A stretch of DNA of 64,000 nt from Solwaraspora sp. WMMD791. GTDB taxonomy: Bacteria; Actinomycetota; Actinomycetes; Mycobacteriales; Micromonosporaceae. Numbering within the stretch: position 1 is the stretch's first letter; each line of letters starts with the position of its first letter. The notes beneath the pieces were generated by a model. That model saw only the letters and a program-made list of their open reading frames with translations, did not search any database and was not told the origin of the DNA. The translations under genes were made by a program, and so were the position numbers. Location of the stretch: positions 1,302,001-1,366,000 of the forward strand of contig NZ_CP120737.1 in NCBI RefSeq assembly GCF_029581195.1. Direction: 5' to 3'. This document shows, in pieces, positions 53,798-64,000 of the stretch.

Positions 53798-55336
53798 TCA
53801 GGCGGTGCAGACCGGGGTCATACCGGTCGCTGCTCCAGTTCCTTGGAAACCGAATTCGGTGGACTGGCCGGCGCTCACCGCGCCGTTGTAGCTGACGTTG
53901 CTGAACCGGACTGTGCCGCTGTTGCCGCTGCGGTTGGCGTTCCAGGCGTTGGTCACGGTGGCCCCGGACGGCAGGGTCAGTTGGACGCTCCACCCGTTGA
54001 TCGGCGAGCTTCCGGCGGTGACCCGCACCGTGGCGACGAAGCCACCGGGCCAGGAGTTCAGCGAGACGGTGGCCGAGCAGCCAGACGGGTTCGGCGGCGG
54101 GGTCGTCGGCGGTACGGTCGTCGGTGGCGCCGTCGTCGGCGGTGCCGTCGTCGGCGGTGCCGTCGTCGGTGGCGGGGTCGTCGGTGGTGCCGTGGTCGGC
54201 GGTACGGTCGTCGGCGGTGGAGTGACGACGTTACGGCCCCTGTTCAGCTCGTCGAGGACCGCGTGGTACGCGGCCTTCTTCTGGTAGTTGCCGTTGCCAC
54301 CGGTGAAGAGCAGGCCCCGCTCCGAGGAGCGCCACGACTCGCTGTCGGAGATGCCCCAGACGGTGATGCCGGTGCACTTGGCGACGTTCAGGCAGGCCCG
54401 GACGACCTTGCGGTAGTTTTCTGCCTGGCCCGCGCCGATGTCGTTGTTGCTCAGGTCGTCGTCGATGTCCACCTCGGAGAGGTGCACCTCGACACCGAGG
54501 TCGGCGAAGCGCTGGATGTTGGCCTGCAGGTCGTCGGTGATGATGCTGTTCGGGTTGTCGTTGAAGTGGGCCTGGAACCCGACGCAGTCGATGTACTGCC
54601 GGTAGTTGCGGACGATCTCGTACAGCGCGTTGGACTTGCGGTTCGGGGTACCGCCCTGGACCGTCAGGCCCTCGACGTCGTAGTCGTTGATGCAGAGCTT
54701 GGTGGTCAGCCCGCCGGCCTGCACGACCTGTCTGGCCCGGATGAACGAGTCCCGGATGACGTCGGTGTCGCCGGCGTCGAAGAAGTCACCGTCGCCGTTG
54801 GCGTCCCGGTTCATGCTGTGCGGCCACTGGGTCCGGCGCCGGCCGGTGTTGTTGTCCTCCAGCGCCTCGTTGACGACGTCCCAGTAGGCGATCCTGTTGC
54901 CCCAGCGGTTGATCGCGTTGCCGATGAACGTGTTCAGCGTCGCCTGGCTGGCACCCTGCAGCGCCCCGGCCTGCGAGTGCCACACCAGCGTGTGTCCACG
55001 GACCAGCATGCCGTTGCTCTGGGCGTGGTTGACCAGGGTGTCCGCGCCACCGGTGTTCTGCAGGCCGCCGTTCGACGTGGCGATCCGGTCCGGCTTCATG
55101 TCGTTCTCGGCGGTCAGTTGGTTGAACTCCTGACCGACGATCGGGTAGAGCCGGTTGGGCGAGGCGGCGACACCGAAGAACAAGCCGGCCCTTGCCGCTG
55201 CGGCCCGCAGCGTCGTCTCGGCCGCAGCGGCCGGACTGCTGGACTGGACCGCGACAGCTCCACCGACCAGCATCAACACCGCCGTCGGCAACGCGACGCT
55301 GAAGACTTTCCTACGCCGTCTCAGGCTGCTGTCCAC
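53798..55336 (-). CDS. Secreted GH10 endo-1,4-beta-xylanase with CBM2 and a Ca-binding-like insert
   Basis: 512 aa from the GTG at 55336 (GGGAGG close upstream). Signal peptide ~1-38 (VFSVALPTAVLMLVGGAVAV). GH10 barrel ~40-345: acid/base E157 in WDVVNEALE, nucleophile E288 in HLSEVDIDD. After the acid/base strand an insert reads DANGDGDFFDAGD (~178-190), with the Asp spacing of a calcium-binding loop; it is absent from the other GH10 protein in this window. Pro/Thr linker of PPTTAPPTT-type repeats (~355-410), then a CBM2 similar to that of the first xylanase. Secreted xylan hydrolysis. It has its own promoter and terminator. Confidence 0.94.
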   Translation of the reverse strand: MDSSLRRRRKVFSVALPTAVLMLVGGAVAVQSSSPAAAAETTLRAAAARAGLFFGVAASPNRLYPIVGQEFNQLTAENDMKPDRIATSNGGLQNTGGADTLVNHAQSNGMLVRGHTLVWHSQAGALQGASQATLNTFIGNAINRWGNRIAYWDVVNEALEDNNTGRRRTQWPHSMNRDANGDGDFFDAGDTDVIRDSFIRARQVVQAGGLTTKLCINDYDVEGLTVQGGTPNRKSNALYEIVRNYRQYIDCVGFQAHFNDNPNSIITDDLQANIQRFADLGVEVHLSEVDIDDDLSNNDIGAGQAENYRKVVRACLNVAKCTGITVWGISDSESWRSSERGLLFTGGNGNYQKKAAYHAVLDELNRGRNVVTPPPTTVPPTTAPPTTPPPTTAPPTTAPPTTAPPTTVPPTTPPPNPSGCSATVSLNSWPGGFVATVRVTAGSSPINGWSVQLTLPSGATVTNAWNANRSGNSGTVRFSNVSYNGAVSAGQSTEFGFQGTGAATGMTPVCTA

Positions 55337-55392
55337 GGGCCCTCCCTGAGGTTCATGACAGTGATCGATTTTCATGTATGTCTTGCAGGGGA

Positions 55393-55450
55393 AGTATCGA
55401 TACCCGCCGCCGGCAGTGTCAACAACTTCCGGAAACACTCCGGAAACTCC
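55393..55450 (-). promoter_or_regulatory. Second xylanase promoter and shared operator motif
   Basis: On the minus strand TTGACA (55417-55422) and GATACT (55393-55398) are 18 bp apart, giving a start of transcription near 55386. Immediately upstream is CTTCCGGAAACACTCCGGAAACTCC-like DNA (55426-55450), two CCGGAAAC units. The 13-base ACTCCGGAAACTC (55437-55449) differs by one base from ATTCCGGAAACTC upstream of the first GH10 gene, at nearly the same distance from the start codon (about 105 bp). Confidence 0.65.
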
Positions 55451-55895
55451 AGCAGTGGTCGGCTCGACCCGGGCGCTGGCGCCACGCCCGCCCCGGAGTT
55501 CCGCTCCTACCGTTGCGCCTCGGTGGCGGCCCCCTGGGTCTTTCCGGCCAGCCATGACCTTCACGGGCCCCGGGTCGGTCGCGGTCGTCCCGGCTGCCGG
55601 GCACGCCACCGGGTCGGTCATCGTGTTCGGCACCACACACCCGACAACCAGCGGTACACCTCGGAGACCTGACCTGACAGCCGGACGACGTCACCGACCG
55701 GATGCAACGCCCCGGCCCGTGCAGCGCCCCCCACCGACAGCGACCCGGGGAAGATTCGCGGTGATCTTCCCCGGCATGGAAGCCGACGCCCCTCTGGTCG
55801 CGATGTCGTGCAACACAGAGAGGCGCCGTCGGTTGGCAGGGGGCTGGATGCGATACAGACTGCAGACGCGACTCCGACGCTCTGCGCGCGTCAGG
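55451..55895. other. Intergenic region downstream of the GH6 gene, no gene recognised
   Basis: 445 bp between the xylanase promoter and the GH6 stop. Open frames here show no recognisable family. A small GC-rich stem around the GH6 stop may be a terminator, but none long enough to call was found. Confidence 0.4.
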
Positions 55896-56864
55896 CTAAT
55901 AGCCGTAGATCATCTTGTAGGCCACCTCGGGCAGGAACTGACCGGCGCTCGATCCGCCGCCGACTCCGCAGTTGCCGTCGGACTCACCCGGCGTCTTGAT
56001 CCACAGCAGCATTTCGGCGCCGCCGCCCATCCGGCTGGGTGTGCCGATCCTGCGTCCACTCGGGTTACACCACTGACCGTTGGATCCGTTGCCGTTGCGA
56101 CTGGTATCGATCACGAACGGCTTGCGGTACCCGAACATCTGCAGGGCGGAAGCGACCTGATTGCCGTAGTTGGCGTTCTCACCGGTGGTGAAGTAGTTCG
56201 ACACGTTCAGGGCGAAACCGCGCGCGTTGGCTACACCGGCCATGTTGAGCCGCTGCGCCATCGTCCGAGCGTCGACCCAGCCGGAGTTCCCGGCGTCGAT
56301 GTAGGCCCAGGTGTTGGGCGCCTTGGACCGGAATTGGCCGACGGCGCGGGAGAGCATGCCCACCCGGTCGTTGATCTGGGCCTGGCTCATGCAGTTGAAG
56401 TCGCCCAGGGAGTCCGGCTCAAGGACCACCACGGCAGGACGACTGCCGATGGCAGAGGCGAAGGAGGCGATCCATGAGTCGTAGGCGGCGACGCTGCCGG
56501 CACCACCACCGGAGTGGCCGCCGCACGCGTCCCGGCCGGGGAGGTTGTACGCCACCAGCAGCGGCAGCTTGTCGACAGCGTCCGCTGCTCCCACATAGCC
56601 CCTGACCGCACTCCCGATGTCACCACTCCAGTTGCCGAACCATCTGGCCATCGGCTTCTGCGCTATCTCCGCGCGGATGGCGGCGGCGCGTCCGTCGCCC
56701 GGGTTCGCGGCCGCCCACCTGGCCGGACTCGAGTTGGGGTCGACGTAGAAGCCGCTGGTCTGGCTGATCGGGTCCGCGTGCGCGGCTGGCGCACCGAGCA
56801 GGATCGCGGGAACCGCCAACGCCAAGGCGGCGGCAAGTCCCCAAGGACGGGTCCGTCGTGTCAT
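55896..56864 (-). CDS. Secreted GH6 endo-cellulase without binding module
   Basis: 322 aa from the ATG at 56864 behind GAGGAGAC. Signal peptide ~1-30 (GLAAALALAVPAILLGAPAAHA). GH6 catalytic domain throughout: GFYVDPNSSPARWAAANP, D112 in YNLPGRDACGG, and proton donor D151 in VVLEPDSLGDF; NSGWVDARTMAQRLNMAGV and MLLWIKTPGESDGNC complete the barrel. The sequence lacks CBM2 and Pro/Thr linker, unlike the xylanases. It hydrolyses internal beta-1,4-glucosidic bonds of cellulose. Divergent from a LacI-family gene with operators between them. Confidence 0.94.
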   Translation of the reverse strand: MTRRTRPWGLAAALALAVPAILLGAPAAHADPISQTSGFYVDPNSSPARWAAANPGDGRAAAIRAEIAQKPMARWFGNWSGDIGSAVRGYVGAADAVDKLPLLVAYNLPGRDACGGHSGGGAGSVAAYDSWIASFASAIGSRPAVVVLEPDSLGDFNCMSQAQINDRVGMLSRAVGQFRSKAPNTWAYIDAGNSGWVDARTMAQRLNMAGVANARGFALNVSNYFTTGENANYGNQVASALQMFGYRKPFVIDTSRNGNGSNGQWCNPSGRRIGTPSRMGGGAEMLLWIKTPGESDGNCGVGGGSSAGQFLPEVAYKMIYGY

Positions 56865-56885
56865 GAACTGGTCTCCTCGGGTCGG

Positions 56886-56903
56886 ACTGGAAGCGCTTCC
56901 AGT
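56886..56903. promoter_or_regulatory. Perfect 18-bp CelR/CebR-like operator
   Basis: ACTGGAAGCGCTTCCAGT is a perfect palindrome 22 bp upstream of the GH6 start, downstream of a TTGACA (56952-56957, minus strand) promoter element. Its core TGGAAGCGCTTCCA closely resembles the TGGGAGCGCTCCCA sites of cellulose-responsive LacI-type repressors in actinomycetes. Regulation by the adjacent LacI gene product is inferred. Confidence 0.8.
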
Positions 56904-56997
56904 GATGTCTATCCATACGTTCGATCCGATGTTCGGAAAATTACGGGCAGATGTCAAGAGACAGCGTCACCGCGACAAGATCGAAATCAGGTCTCGT

Positions 56998-58806: not shown

Positions 58807-59988
58807 TCAGAGGTACAGCGTGTTGGGTGCCAGACCGGCCAGCACCCGCCCGTACAACTCGGCGTTGGTGTCCGGGTTCATCAGCGCGTGCAGGTTGACC
58901 GACTGCGCGTCGTGCAGGACCCGCCGCATCGGCACCGAGCTGTAGATGGACGTCCCGCCGGAGGCTCCGGCGAGGATCTCCACGGACTCCCGGGCACGGC
59001 GGCAGGCCGCACCGACGCCGGCCCGGGCGCGGGCCCGTTCCAGCAGGGTCCAGTCACTGCCGTCAGCCGCCTTCGTATCGACCAGGTCAGCCAGCCGCAG
59101 GGCGTGGAACTCAGCCTCGTCGGCGCGGACGGTCGCGTCGGCCAGTTGCAGATGGGTCAACGGGGCGTCAGCCTGATGGGCGTAGTCCGTGTAGGTGATC
59201 TTCCGTTCGGGCAACCGCTCCAGGAAGATGTCCTGACCGGCCCGGGCCAGACCGAGCATGGTGCCCACCGACGAGGCTGCCGCCACCGGCAGCAGCGGCG
59301 GCCGGTAGATGACCGACTCGGCGTTGCGCTGCGAGGCGGAACCGCCCTGCAGGACCATTCCGAGGGGCAGCACCCGGGCGGCAGGGACGAAGACCTGCTC
59401 GGCGACGGTGCTGACGCTCCCCGTGCCCCGCAGACCCGACGTGTGCCAGTCGTCCACCACGCGCAGATCCGACATCGGCACCAGGGCCATGACCGGCATC
59501 GGTTCGTTGTCACCGTCGACCAGCACGGCGATGATCTCCTGCCAGTGGCTGTGCAGCGCGCCGCTGACGAAGCCCCACTTGCCGTCGACCACGATGCCAC
59601 CGGCGGTGGGGCTGGCCATCGCCGACGGGCTGAGCGTGCCACAGATCCGCACGTCGGGGGTGGCGAAGACCTCGTCCTGCACCTCGTCGGGGAACTGACA
59701 CGCCATCCAGGTCGGAATCCAGTACACCGACGTGGTCCAGGAGCTGGCGCCATCGCCGCGTCCCAGCTCGGCGGCCACCTCCACCAGAGTGCGGGTGTCG
59801 CACTCGTAGCCGCCGTACCGCAGCGGGGTGCGAAGCTTGAAGAACCCCGCGTCGGCCAGAGCCTCGATGGTCTCGTCGGGCAGCCGCCGGTGCTCCTCGG
59901 CCCACTGCGCGTTGCGGCGCAGCAGCGGCAGTAGATCGGTGGCCCGCTGGACGAGCTGTTCGCGAGTGGGAACGGCGGTCTGCAACAC
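58807..59988 (-). CDS. Acyl-CoA dehydrogenase-fold flavin-dependent monooxygenase
   Basis: 393 aa from the GTG at 59988 with AAGGAGACG upstream. Acyl-CoA dehydrogenase fold: helical start (LLPLLRRNAQWAEEHRRLPDETIEALADAGFFKLRTP), ELGRGDGASSWTTSVY, middle beta domain (VVDGKWGFVSGALHSHW; VVDDWHTSGLRGTGS), C-terminal helices (LERARARAGVGAACRRARESVEIL; GGTSIYSSVPMRRVLHDAQ). This subgroup (HsaA/HpaB-like group D) usually hydroxylates aromatic or polyketide substrates with reduced flavin supplied by a partner reductase; no reductase gene is adjacent. The thiol/acyl-CoA catalytic Glu of true dehydrogenases is not evident. It belongs to a tailoring-type neighbourhood. Confidence 0.85.
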   Translation of the reverse strand: MLQTAVPTREQLVQRATDLLPLLRRNAQWAEEHRRLPDETIEALADAGFFKLRTPLRYGGYECDTRTLVEVAAELGRGDGASSWTTSVYWIPTWMACQFPDEVQDEVFATPDVRICGTLSPSAMASPTAGGIVVDGKWGFVSGALHSHWQEIIAVLVDGDNEPMPVMALVPMSDLRVVDDWHTSGLRGTGSVSTVAEQVFVPAARVLPLGMVLQGGSASQRNAESVIYRPPLLPVAAASSVGTMLGLARAGQDIFLERLPERKITYTDYAHQADAPLTHLQLADATVRADEAEFHALRLADLVDTKAADGSDWTLLERARARAGVGAACRRARESVEILAGASGGTSIYSSVPMRRVLHDAQSVNLHALMNPDTNAELYGRVLAGLAPNTLYL

Positions 59989-60219
59989 GAGCGTCTCCTT
60001 GGGATCGGTCCGACCGTTACTGCGGCCGGGTCGGTGGTGCCGTACGCCTGGATGGGCGACACGGCGATGCTCACCGCGGTCGGACGCCGAGCCCTCGCCG
60101 GGCGGCGGCCACCGCGCCCTACCGACGATCGCAGCCACCGGCGCGACGGCGCATCTTCGCGACTGCGGCCCTGGTGCCCACCCCGATCGGAACCGTCACC
60201 GGCGCCGGCGCCGGCGCCG

Positions 60220-60500
60220 GAGGTGATGTCGCGCAGTCCGGCGGCGTCCTCGTAGTACAACGCGGCCGACGCTCCGGCCGTGGCGGTGAACCAGTAGATC
60301 GACCCCAACGTCAACAGCTGGTCGCGAAAATCCGGGCCGGCCGCCAGCCCGCCAGTTCGCGCAGGTAGCTCACGGGTACGCCGCAGTCCCATCCGTCGTC
60401 GCCAAGCGCTGCCGGCCAGTGGGTTTCGGCCAGACGACGCGACAGATCGTCGATACCGGCCTGGGGAACGTCGATTCGGTACGGTCGTATGGCGCGCCTT
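60220..60500 (-). pseudogene. Epoxide hydrolase remnant with internal deletion
   Basis: Reading the minus strand, the block ~60495-60343 gives RPYRIDVPQAGIDDL...GWDCGVPVSYLREL, the N-terminal signature of bacterial epoxide hydrolases (family members begin RPF-RIDVPQADLDDL and have 'GW-GVPL-YL'). A block at ~60335-60225, in another frame, gives DQLLTLGSIYWFTATAGASAALYYED, the C-terminal signature. The alpha/beta core with nucleophile Asp and catalytic His, about 250 residues, is absent. No ATG starts the N-terminal block (ATA/GCC occurs). Identification is by family memory. Confidence 0.75.
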
Positions 60501-60530: not shown

Positions 60531-63377
60531 TCAGGAACCCTCGTGGTCCGGGACCGGGTGAGCCGGGCGGGGTCCGGCTTGCACCGTCGACGGGGTCGGC
60601 ACGGAGGCCTCCGACGTCAACGCAGCGGCGGTGTCGGCGGGGGTCTGCCGGGAGCCGGTCGAGGAGGCGTCGGCCGCTGCGAGTGCTGGTCGGCCAACGT
60701 GCCGGTCCCGGGACAGACGTAGCACCCGACGTACCATGCTCGGTCGCATCAGCGCGCTCGGCGACTCGATGAGCCCGGCCACCCGCATGAACGCCGTGGT
60801 CACCGTGGCGTCCTTGGTCGCCGCGTACTGGACCCGGCTGAGGTAGGCGTTACCCAACCGCACATTCGCGGGCCGGTCACCGGCAACCTCGGGAAAGTCG
60901 AGGTCACCGCTGGTGGAAATCTGCCACGGGGTGTCGATGATCCTCGCCACGTCGCGCAGGAACACCTTGGAGTCGGGCGGGGTCCCTTCAAGCAGCAGCC
61001 GGCGCAGCGCCATCACCTCGATCGCCGCGACGGACATCCCCTGGCCGTATACCGGGTTGAAGCTGCACACCGCGTCGCCGAGGACCAGCAGCCGCTGCGG
61101 GAACCGGGTCAGTCGTTCATAGTGGCGGCGGACGCTGGCCGGGAAAGTGAAGGCCACCGGTTCGGTGAGTGGCTCGGCGTCGCGGATGCCCTCGTAGACG
61201 TCCGGCACCGGCAGGGACCGGACGAACTCGACGAAGCCGTCCGGGTCGGTGGGCGGCTGGTCTCCCAGGATCCCGGTCAGCGACACGATGCACTCGTCCG
61301 GACCGACCTGGCCGAAGAACGCGCCCCGAGGGTGTGCGGGCGATGCGACCGGATTGATCGACTGCACCCCGTCGAACATTTCGGGCCGGCTGCGGTACAT
61401 CCGGGTGGTGTACGTCAGGCCGATCCTCATCTTCTCCTCCACCGGCCGGTCGTACCCCAGCTGTTGCAGCCAGACCGGGGTGCGGGAGCCGCGTCCGGTG
61501 GCGTCGACCAGGAGGTCCGCGTCGAGGACGCTCTCCTCGCCCGTCGCTACGTCCCGTAGCGACACCCCGGTCACCTGGCTGTTGTCAGGTACCGCGCGCA
61601 CTCCGGTGAGCTCGGTGAGCTGTCGGTAGGTGACGTTCGGCAGCGCCGCGACCCGGGTCCGCAGGTAGTCCTCCAGGACCGGACGGGGCGCGGTGATCGA
61701 CAGCAGGCCGGTCCGGGCCGGGGCGAGCCGACGACCGTTGAAGAACCAGCGCATCTCCCCCATGTCGCCCACCGGAATTCCGCGGGCCTGCAGGTCGGCG
61801 CGCAGACCAGGGAAGAGCTCGGCGAGAATGAGGTAGCCGCGGCCATGCAGACCGTGGGCGTGTCCCGTGTGCGGGGCTCCGCGGCGCGGCACGGCGACAC
61901 CGAGCACTTCGTCGCGTTCCACCACCACGACCTCCCGGTAGTGGTCTGCGAGGACGCGGGCCGCGAGGGTGCCCGCGATGCTGCCGCCGAGCACGACCGC
62001 CCGTTGGCCGACCAGGGGACCGTTGCCGGTGGCCCGCACCGCGTCGGCGTCGGCTTTGCGTGCGGTGCGCAATGCGCCGATGATCATTCCCGGCTTCATC
62101 AGGGCGGTCGGCGGATCGACGAGCCCGGCGACCCGGAAGAACGCCCTGGTGAATCGGCCGTCGCGTTGGGCCGCCGTGTGCAGACGCTCCATGAAGGCGC
62201 CACCGAGCCGGTCCTTGAGGGTCCGAGGGCCCTCGACACCCGGGAAGGCGAGATCGGCGCCGACGGAGGTCTCCCAGGGGCCGTCGATGATGGGGCGGAT
62301 CGCCTTGAAGTACTCGATCGGTCGGGCCGGGCCGGCGTCGAGGTGCGCGCCGAGTGCGGCTGCCTCCATCGCGGCCACCGTCATCCCCTGCCCGTAGACG
62401 GGGTTGAAGGAGCATACTCCGTCGCCGACGACCAGGAGTCCCTGAGGAAACCGGGTCAGCTTGTCGTAACGGCGGCGGATGCTGGCCGGGATCTTGAAAC
62501 CCGCGATCTCGCTCATCGGCTCCGCAGTGCGGATCGCCTCGTAGATCTCCGGTGCGTCCAGGGACCGGGCGTACTCGAGGAAACCCTCGGGATCCCGGGG
62601 CGGATGGTCCCCGAGCAGCCCGGTCAGCGAAAGCAGGGCGATGTTGTCCGGGAACCGGCCGAAGAACGCTCCTCGGGGGTTGGCCGGTGAGGCGACCGAG
62701 TTGATCGCGAGGTCCGTACCGAACGGGTCGCTGTCGAGTCGGAAGTAGCGTGACACGTAGGCCAGGTCGATCTTGACCCGTTCCTCCTCGGGCCGCTGGT
62801 AACCGAGCTCCGCCAGCCAGACCGGGGTACGGCTCCCCCGCCCGGTCGCGTCGATGATCAAATCGGCGGTGAGCTGCTCCGATTGCGGCTGCCCCGACTC
62901 CCCGCTGAGCACGACTGCGGTGACCCGGCGACGGTCGGCTGTGGCGACGACGCCCTGCACGGTCGTACGCTCGCGTAGCCGCACGTTCGGAAGGGCGAGA
63001 ACGCGGGCACGGACGTGTGCCTCCAGGGTGGGCCGGTTCGCGTTGACGCTCAACAGTCCGGAATGCGCCTGCTGGAGCGGCCGTCCGTTGAAGTACCACC
63101 GGAGGTCGCCGGAAAGGTCGCAGGTCTGTACCCCGTGCGCGGTCAGCTCGGCCTGCAGGCCCGGTAGCAGTTCCTCGATGACCTCGTGCCCGCGGGCCAA
63201 CAGCGCATGGGCGTGATGGGCCTGGGGTACGCCGCGCCGCGTTCCTGTGACATCGACGATAGTGTCCCGCTCGACCAGCACGACCTCGTCGAACCGGTCC
63301 GCTGCCACCCGGGCCGCGAGCAGCCCGGCCATTCCACCACCGAGTACGACAGCTCGGGCGCCTAGGTGTTCACGCAT
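60531..63377 (-). CDS. Tandem double-module FAD-dependent monooxygenase
   Basis: 948 aa, ATG with GGAGG 12 bases upstream. Two full-length FAD modules. Module 1 (1-~445): FAD Rossmann VVLGGGMAGLLAARV with GGGMAG at 13-18, ERDT, DATGRGSRTPVWL (~176-188), FAD-ribityl site VVGDGVCSFNPVYGQGMTV (~316-334). Module 2 (~458-880): VVLGGSIAGTLAARV with GGSIAG at 464-469, ERDEVLGVAVPRRGAPH, DATGRGSRTPVWL (~625-637), LGDAVCSFNPVYGQGMSV (~766-783). A Ser/Pro/Thr/Ala tail (~880-948) is low-complexity. Each half alone resembles single-module class A-like flavoprotein hydroxylases. The halves share GAFFG, SLTG.LGD.PP, and the PRG/TLE region, consistent with internal duplication followed by divergence. Probably a tailoring enzyme acting on a natural product. 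Confidence 0.85.
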   Translation of the reverse strand: MREHLGARAVVLGGGMAGLLAARVAADRFDEVVLVERDTIVDVTGTRRGVPQAHHAHALLARGHEVIEELLPGLQAELTAHGVQTCDLSGDLRWYFNGRPLQQAHSGLLSVNANRPTLEAHVRARVLALPNVRLRERTTVQGVVATADRRRVTAVVLSGESGQPQSEQLTADLIIDATGRGSRTPVWLAELGYQRPEEERVKIDLAYVSRYFRLDSDPFGTDLAINSVASPANPRGAFFGRFPDNIALLSLTGLLGDHPPRDPEGFLEYARSLDAPEIYEAIRTAEPMSEIAGFKIPASIRRRYDKLTRFPQGLLVVGDGVCSFNPVYGQGMTVAAMEAAALGAHLDAGPARPIEYFKAIRPIIDGPWETSVGADLAFPGVEGPRTLKDRLGGAFMERLHTAAQRDGRFTRAFFRVAGLVDPPTALMKPGMIIGALRTARKADADAVRATGNGPLVGQRAVVLGGSIAGTLAARVLADHYREVVVVERDEVLGVAVPRRGAPHTGHAHGLHGRGYLILAELFPGLRADLQARGIPVGDMGEMRWFFNGRRLAPARTGLLSITAPRPVLEDYLRTRVAALPNVTYRQLTELTGVRAVPDNSQVTGVSLRDVATGEESVLDADLLVDATGRGSRTPVWLQQLGYDRPVEEKMRIGLTYTTRMYRSRPEMFDGVQSINPVASPAHPRGAFFGQVGPDECIVSLTGILGDQPPTDPDGFVEFVRSLPVPDVYEGIRDAEPLTEPVAFTFPASVRRHYERLTRFPQRLLVLGDAVCSFNPVYGQGMSVAAIEVMALRRLLLEGTPPDSKVFLRDVARIIDTPWQISTSGDLDFPEVAGDRPANVRLGNAYLSRVQYAATKDATVTTAFMRVAGLIESPSALMRPSMVRRVLRLSRDRHVGRPALAAADASSTGSRQTPADTAAALTSEASVPTPSTVQAGPRPAHPVPDHEGS

Positions 63378-63549
63378 CCCGATTCAACCTCCATAGAGTA
63401 TCCACGGTGCCTGTCCAGCCAATCAGAAACCGATTGCGCATAGACGTAATGGGCCGCTGATAGGGCCGATTACCGTGTGTCTTCCATGGTCGTGGTCGAC
63501 ACCTGTGAACGCACCTTCTCTCGTGCGATTCGGACTCGATGCCGGCCTG
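63378..63549. other. Region between monooxygenase start and GMC remnant
   Basis: 172 bp, lower in G+C near 63380-63480, likely holding the monooxygenase promoter. No gene seen. Confidence 0.4.
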
Positions 63550-64000
63550 GCCCGTCACGACGGCATAGCCCGTCAGGGTGGCCAGGGCCGGTCCGACCGC
63601 GCAGCTACGGCCGCTGATCAGGCCGGTGAGCGTGACCCGCAGGTAGTAGTAGTACCGGTGCCGGATCCGAAGTATGGCGGTCGGGCCGTCCGAGGCCAGC
63701 CGCACCTCGCCTTGACCGGTCGGCCGAAGCACACACGGTCCGAAGGAGATGCCATGGTCGGGCGGCACTCCGAGTGCGCCGTCGGCAAAGGTCACCGGCG
63801 ACGTGAGCGGCCCGGCTGGTTCCAGTCGTCGAGGTCCGTCCGGTGGCCGCGGATGTGCACCGTGCCGCTCATCCGCTGGTACCTCCGAGCACCCGACCAC
63901 GCGGCAGATAGAACCGTCGACCGTTGAGCTGCGGCTCATCGTGGCTGTCGTAGTCCCAGTCGTACCGGGTGCGGCACAGCTTGCCGCCCCAGGCCGGGGT
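63550..64000 (-). pseudogene. GMC oxidoreductase remnant, frameshifted and internally deleted, partial at window end
   Basis: On the minus strand, from the window end to ~63876: AWGGKLCRTRYDWDYDS...GRRFYLPRGRVLGGTSG, typical GMC N-terminal segment. At about 63872 one base is missing: the frame shifts and continues MSGTVHIRGHRTDLDDWNQ, the next GMC piece (normally GGxSxxNG/xGxxYxRG...DFDDW). After ~63815 the similarity stops. The C-terminal GMC piece then appears at 63759-63550: DHGISFGPCVLRPTGQGEVRLAS, RIRHRYY, ALATLTG. Several hundred residues are missing between. The gene begins beyond the window. Confidence 0.75.

Follow-up and report, generated by a model that had tools for sequence, protein, structure and literature searches.

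How two flavin monooxygenases came to share a single polypeptide, and what they might accomplish together, is the question raised by a gene in the window, that is, the whole stretch of 64,000 nucleotides of the Solwaraspora sp. WMMD791 genome analysed here. The gene (60531–63377 including the stop codon, minus strand) encodes a protein of 948 amino acids in a single frame on the minus strand of the window, which opens with ATG and has no internal stop codon. The protein consists of an N module (residues 5–442; 62052–63365), a linker (residues 443–455; 62013–62051), a C module (residues 456–892; 60702–62012), and a C-terminal tail for which the confidence of the structure model is low (residues 893–948; 60534–60701), all on the minus strand, as are the motifs that follow. 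The FAD loop reads GGGMAG in the N module (residues 13–18; 63324–63341) and GGSIAG in the C module (residues 464–469; 61971–61988). The segments HAHALLARG (residues 55–63; 63189–63215) and HAHGLHGRG (residues 506–514; 61836–61862) contain H57 and H508, respectively, both aligned with His71 of the epoxidase Lsd18. The motif DATGRGSRTPVWL is found at residues 176–188 and again at residues 625–637, and the second flavin motif reads GDGVCSFNPVYGQGM in the N module (residues 318–332; 62382–62426) and GDAVCSFNPVYGQGM in the C module (residues 767–781; 61035–61079). The Pfam families FAD_oxidored and FAD_binding_3 each match two stretches of the protein. The sequence-only reading, which had described two complete FAD-monooxygenase modules with intact flavin motifs in both halves, is thus borne out by the single open frame and by the twofold presence of the GxGxxG loop, DATGRGSRTPVWL, and the second flavin motif. 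The alignment of the two halves, which that reading had proposed as a check, spans 437 columns with 52% protein identity (E 1e-156). At the DNA level the identity is 61% over 439 codons and ranges from 46% to 77% across 30-codon windows, leaving no near-identical tract; on these grounds, a recent conversion event between the halves was rejected.

The fusion is real and inherited. The source genome is a single contig of 6.93 Mb rated as 100% complete, and the fused form is also present in Micromonospora radicis (best segment 88% identical to the window protein) as well as in genomes G006 and G063 (73% in each). A further copy, in genome G037 (L075:9718-11024), carries a frameshift early in the C module, either real or a sequencing error; the GMC oxidoreductase and HsaA-like genes of the same genome are each matched in two pieces. 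We found no point in favour of an artefact of assembly or sequencing, and the probability of such an origin is negligible, because the same fusion recurs in independent genomes and the two halves are too dissimilar in DNA to have arisen from an assembly error. The earlier statement that flavoprotein hydroxylases of this kind normally comprise a single module holds in the genomes searched: the fused form was found in 4 of 111 genomes of the bacterial family, including the genome of the window (E 1e-180, with at most seven candidates scored per genome). Among 14 related loci obtained by searching genome contigs, one is fused and two more are unfused adjacent pairs. A class-wide sample yielded 3 positive genomes out of 148 (threshold 1e-120), with at most five candidates scored per genome, such that the breadth beyond the bacterial family is under-sampled. 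For the matches in Streptomyces clavuligerus and Nonomuraea, the matched stretch is devoid of annotated features. Among the open-licence matches listed in a literature search, we found neither a publication describing such a two-module fusion nor one on an enediyne flavin enzyme of this family, which is weak evidence of absence. The modules themselves belong to a known kind of enzyme, and the chain of two is a variant of which the open-licence matches listed gave no description.

The ancestry of the modules was examined using a tree of 73 rows, including an exact duplicate of the N module and a partial C module of G037 but neither the other partial modules, nor the hybrid gene described below, nor L008, a relative encoded in the same genome as the window. 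The N modules of the fused proteins form one clade with the upstream gene of a pair in Actinomadura rupiterrae (support 100/99). This clade is nested within a larger one (100/97) that also includes single enzymes from Nonomuraea and Amycolatopsis and an enzyme encoded on a plasmid in the cluster for the enediyne C-1027. The C modules and the downstream gene of A. rupiterrae are placed in a separate clade together with other single-module enzymes. A constraint that places the modules of the fused proteins in a single clade with the A. rupiterrae pair lowers the log-likelihood by 127.8 units (AU test, p-AU 6.9e-9; 47 of the 73 rows, after removal of 26 distant, partial, or duplicate rows). The AU test therefore rejects a duplication private to the fused lineage, and the proposal that the modules diverged after a duplication in place does not stand, since N and C modules fall into separate clades that each have single-module members. 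A much older tandem whose modules were later lost in many lineages is possible, and would require many losses. In A. rupiterrae the N-type and C-type genes are separate neighbours in the same order as the fused modules, with one gene per clade. The pair, located approximately 30 kb from an enediyne polyketide synthase (PKS) gene, is unfused: the first gene ends with a stop codon, and the second has a start of its own, likely GTG. A pairing independent of that in the fused lineage is found in Actinoplanes siamensis, where a C-type gene is preceded, with a stop-start overlap, by a more distant member of the enzyme family. The simplest history would be that two paralogues were brought side by side and subsequently fused.

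The closest relatives of both modules with a solved structure are polyether epoxidases. At an E-value of 0.001, the only solved proteins matching the whole protein are MonCI and Lsd18 (9 distinct PDB sequences); each half matches them with E-values between 3e-55 and 2e-50 and has no other PDB match at 1e-10. A fold search with a structure model of the tandem returned Lsd18 and MonCI chains as the nine best hits (target TM 0.81–0.84), with E-values of 1e-30 or better compared to 1e-16 for the next match. The model itself is of moderate quality (pLDDT 73, pTM 0.51), and the packing between the modules was discarded in view of the pTM value. In the underlying alignment, 15 of 17 rows are single modules placed on the C half, as judged from invariant columns that all lie between residues 460 and 885; the N half hence rests on two rows. 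Lsd18 (also LasC, lasalocid) and MonCI (monensin) share with both modules the fold, the FAD loop, and the arginine and histidine contacting the flavin, at 28–31% identity to one module in the fold alignment. They differ from the fused protein in having a single module with one active site, and their substrates are polyether polyketides; Lsd18 is also reported to accept farnesyl acetate. The reported FAD contacts of Lsd18 are the GGGMAG loop, Arg51, and His71 (PMC12144862). By a mapping done partly via the alignment of N with C, the latter two correspond to Arg37 and His57 in the N module and to Arg488 and His508 in the C module. Both modules therefore possess the features that mark a class A FAD epoxidase of the Lsd18/MonCI type, a GxGxxG loop together with the flavin-contacting arginine and histidine. 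Conserved across both are, in addition to R37/R488 and H57/H508, the pairs Y207/Y656 and V327/V776.

Of the seven substrate-contact residues reported for Lsd18, A70, Y218, and V342 are retained in both modules and I72, W74, H239, and V252 in neither. I72 and W74 are replaced by Ala58 and Leu60 in the N module and by Gly509 and His511 in the C module; H239 and V252 are replaced by Val and Phe in both. The suggestion that substrate-facing segments differ between the halves is hence correct for the two pocket positions aligned with I72 and W74. The difference between GGGMAG and GGSIAG, to which the same reading had given functional weight, says little, as the loop varies within the N set itself (GGGMAG, GAGMAG, GAGIAG). 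Throughout the fused genes and the two A. rupiterrae genes, N-type modules invariably carry the segment HAHALLARG and C-type modules HAHGLH(G/A)RG. Given the conserved FAD contacts and the module-specific pocket residues, the protein likely has two flavin sites with partly different pockets. The subpocket formed by Y218, V252, and V342 is reported to be highly conserved among polyether epoxidases (PMC12144862). Here Y218 and V342 are kept and V252 is Phe in both modules; we therefore refer to the protein as a relative that likely works in the same way, and do not file it as a polyether epoxidase.

Purifying selection appears to act on both modules. The comparison of the window protein with M. 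radicis results in dN/dS values of 0.133 for the N module, 0.116 for the C module, and 0.82 for the C-terminal tail (residues 891–948, 57 codons compared). The linker has a dN/dS of 0.43 (17 codons); across the pairs compared, both halves have values of about 0.1–0.2. On the branch leading to the window's own copy, we counted 2 non-synonymous and 40 synonymous changes in the N module and 5 and 31 in the C module, restricted to codons at which two outgroups agree, a choice that favours conserved sites. At 0.77 Mb, the genome of the window also harbors another cluster, resembling that of G006, with a gene that encodes a single module (L041:9518-11047; G000:C1:771517-773046). This gene is a hybrid: up to residue 261 it tracks the N module of the tandem in G006, and thereafter the C module, and a single switch located between residues 261 and 263 accounts for 447 of 466 informative DNA sites. 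In zero-based numbering, residue 273 of the hybrid pairs with residue 722 of the tandem. The hybrid arose by one in-frame crossover between the N and C modules of a G006-like sister tandem, which deleted one module length. The frame of the hybrid extends beyond the stop position of the G006 gene, and only the last 44 residues of the adjacent HsaA-like gene match.

The genes surrounding the tandem are best described from the other fused loci. In both G006 and G063, the tandem shares four bases with the end of a GMC oxidoreductase gene and another four with the start of an EHN epoxide hydrolase gene (starts from the gene caller, families assigned on the G006 proteins). Nearby genes encode a class-III aminotransferase, a second EHN hydrolase, an HsaA-like protein, a family-2 glycosyltransferase, a cyclase-family protein, and a glyoxalase-family protein. 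The region upstream of the tandem in G006 also encodes a B12-binding protein along with a methylaspartate mutase E chain, and a PLP-dependent protein of the ornithine/DAP/arginine decarboxylase family is found in both genomes (L043:198-7836; L042:14465-15757). The corresponding row in M. radicis consists of aminotransferase, hydrolase, GMC oxidoreductase, tandem, and hydrolase. In the window, two of these neighbours, full-length in M. radicis and G006, are remnants on the minus strand: an epoxide-hydrolase gene (60179–60490), whose pieces match residues 1–51, 280–316, and 318–328 with changes of frame, and a GMC oxidoreductase gene (63505–64000), likewise with changes of frame, that continues 51 bases beyond the window end. 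The gene for the HsaA-like protein, of acyl-CoA-dehydrogenase fold, is open (58807–59988, minus strand). A second epoxide hydrolase and an aminotransferase, the latter approximately 40 residues short within its alignment, are open just past the window end and form one row on one strand with the tandem. Since the remnants flank an intact tandem, the locus is partly decayed. Elsewhere, the window encodes two glycosyl hydrolases (53798–56957), one of family 10 that carries a cellulose-binding domain and a linker rich in proline and threonine, and one of family 6.

A possible pathway for such loci is suggested by the C-1027 cluster. Its single-module relative (WP_010056274.1, Streptomyces globisporus plasmid SGLP1), which is the plasmid enzyme grouped with the fused N modules in the 100/97 clade, is 59% identical to the N module and 54% to the C module. 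Unlike the fused protein it comprises one module, and its record names it only as an NAD(P)-binding protein. An EHN epoxide hydrolase and an HsaA-like protein are encoded in the same cluster; the former is 62% identical to the open hydrolase next to the tandem of the window, the latter 64% to the HsaA-like protein of the window over its length. The C-1027 GMC oxidoreductase does not match the one beside the G006 tandem at 1e-10 and belongs to another subgroup; its counterparts are located near PKS genes. Among 61 genomes of the bacterial family, 18 harbor both the flavin-enzyme family and an enediyne PKS, 3 only the former, 2 only the latter, and 38 neither (flavin-enzyme family at E 1e-100, 21 genomes; enediyne PKS at 1e-300, 20 genomes; at most 14 and 7 candidates, respectively, scored per genome). 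The PKS is hence present in 18 of 21 genomes with the flavin enzymes versus 2 of 40 without (Fisher p 1.7e-10, a value that overstates independence, as the genomes are related), and in all 14 positive genomes at a stricter threshold of 1e-140. Both genes reside on the same contig in 16 of the 18 double-positive genomes, and in 11 of these 16 they are within 40 kb of each other.

Seven genomes, six with fused or paired genes plus G005, have one enediyne PKS match each, with 64–67% identity to the C-1027 enzyme. That of the window's genome (G000:C1:2797104-2802881, with matches to the accessory cassette) is 65% identical over residues 2–1929 of 1939 and is located 1.4 Mb from the tandem. The enediyne PKS gene is also distant from the tandem in G006 and G063; in G037 the frameshifted tandem is found at a distance of 31 kb. 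In the 100 kb around the PKS gene of the window's genome and of G006, the search used found neither a FAD gene of this family nor an epoxide hydrolase, suggesting for the genome of the window that the pathway is split. The idea of one hydrolase per module was rejected, since the counts near PKS genes are unequal: two modules and no hydrolase in G015, two and one in A. rupiterrae, G038, and G063 (the last with additional hydrolase pieces), one and one in the C-1027 cluster and in G016, and three modules (plus one weak match) and two hydrolases in G037.

The analysis establishes the fusion itself, the distinct ancestry of its modules, the constraint on both, their kinship to Lsd18 and MonCI, and the link between the enzyme family and enediyne PKS genes. 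Taken together, we consider it somewhat probable that the protein joins two flavin monooxygenases of epoxidase type that serve an enediyne-type pathway, with epoxide hydrolases as partners. Points against this reading are the distance of the tandem from the PKS gene in the window's genome, G006, and G063, the remnants beside the tandem and the shortened aminotransferase, the genomes with only one of the two gene types, the unequal counts of modules and hydrolases, and the four Lsd18 substrate contacts kept in neither module. Two old and distinct single-module class A FAD monooxygenases, neighbours in a cluster of enediyne type, would have become one polypeptide. The conserved residues suggest that each module binds its own FAD, and kinship to Lsd18 and MonCI suggests that each would use a C4a-hydroperoxyflavin to transfer one oxygen to a C=C bond. 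As two pocket positions differ, the modules would most likely epoxidise one enediyne-core precursor at two different positions, or else its successive intermediates; partner epoxide hydrolases of the EHN family, along with further tailoring enzymes from the cluster, may act next. The fusion would keep the modules equal in amount and close together. A more specific version, in which the N module epoxidises an enediyne precursor and hands the reactive intermediate to the C module for a second epoxide before hydrolases open the products, is tentative and carries perhaps one chance in a few. The sequence-only reading had proposed successive oxidations of one substrate without release. For the fused protein this is possible; a fusion is, however, unnecessary for successive oxidation, since the single active site of Lsd18 is reported to make two epoxides (PMC12144862), and that of MonCI three (PMC10560226), on one substrate.

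It is conceivable, if on balance doubtful, that two co-transcribed neighbours were joined passively, such that the modules work alone and the single chain adds only equal expression. The unfused A. rupiterrae pair and the independently adjacent A. siamensis pair fit such a history, as do the short and less conserved linker (dN/dS 0.43 over 17 codons) and the sister tandem that collapsed to one hybrid module in the same genome, whereas the fused frame is uninterrupted in the window as well as in M. radicis, G006, and G063, with dN/dS of about 0.1–0.2 in both halves for the pairs compared. Improbable, in our estimate, is that one or both modules hydroxylate an aromatic or aliphatic position of a peripheral acyl or aryl group. 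Aromatic hydroxylases have the same class A fold, four of the seven Lsd18 substrate contacts are lost, and HpaB- and HsaA-like oxygenases occur in several related clusters, fitting aromatic parts; yet at E 0.001 no solved proteins other than Lsd18 and MonCI were found as sequence relatives, these two are far ahead in the fold search, and epoxide hydrolases often adjoin. A decaying or repurposed locus in which the enediyne is no longer made is, for the window itself, rather unlikely. The remnants of the GMC oxidoreductase and of one epoxide hydrolase, together with the shortened aminotransferase, imply that the pathway may no longer run here, and the PKS gene is 1.4 Mb away. Against this, the tandem, the second epoxide hydrolase, and the aminotransferase remain open in one row on one strand, and the tandem has accumulated few non-synonymous changes on its own branch.

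The fused epoxidase-type pair remains our preferred reading. We note that a gene fusion is evolutionary evidence for two enzymes serving one pathway. The fusion described here links two single-module lineages of flavin enzymes that are found in enediyne clusters and are only generally named in the C-1027 record. The hybrid gene shows that the modules can recombine in frame, and the fused protein offers a single subject for testing epoxide formation and hand-over. If a hand-over from the N to the C module does take place, the fusion would mark two linked tailoring steps of the enediyne core, carried out by enzymes for which we found no description.
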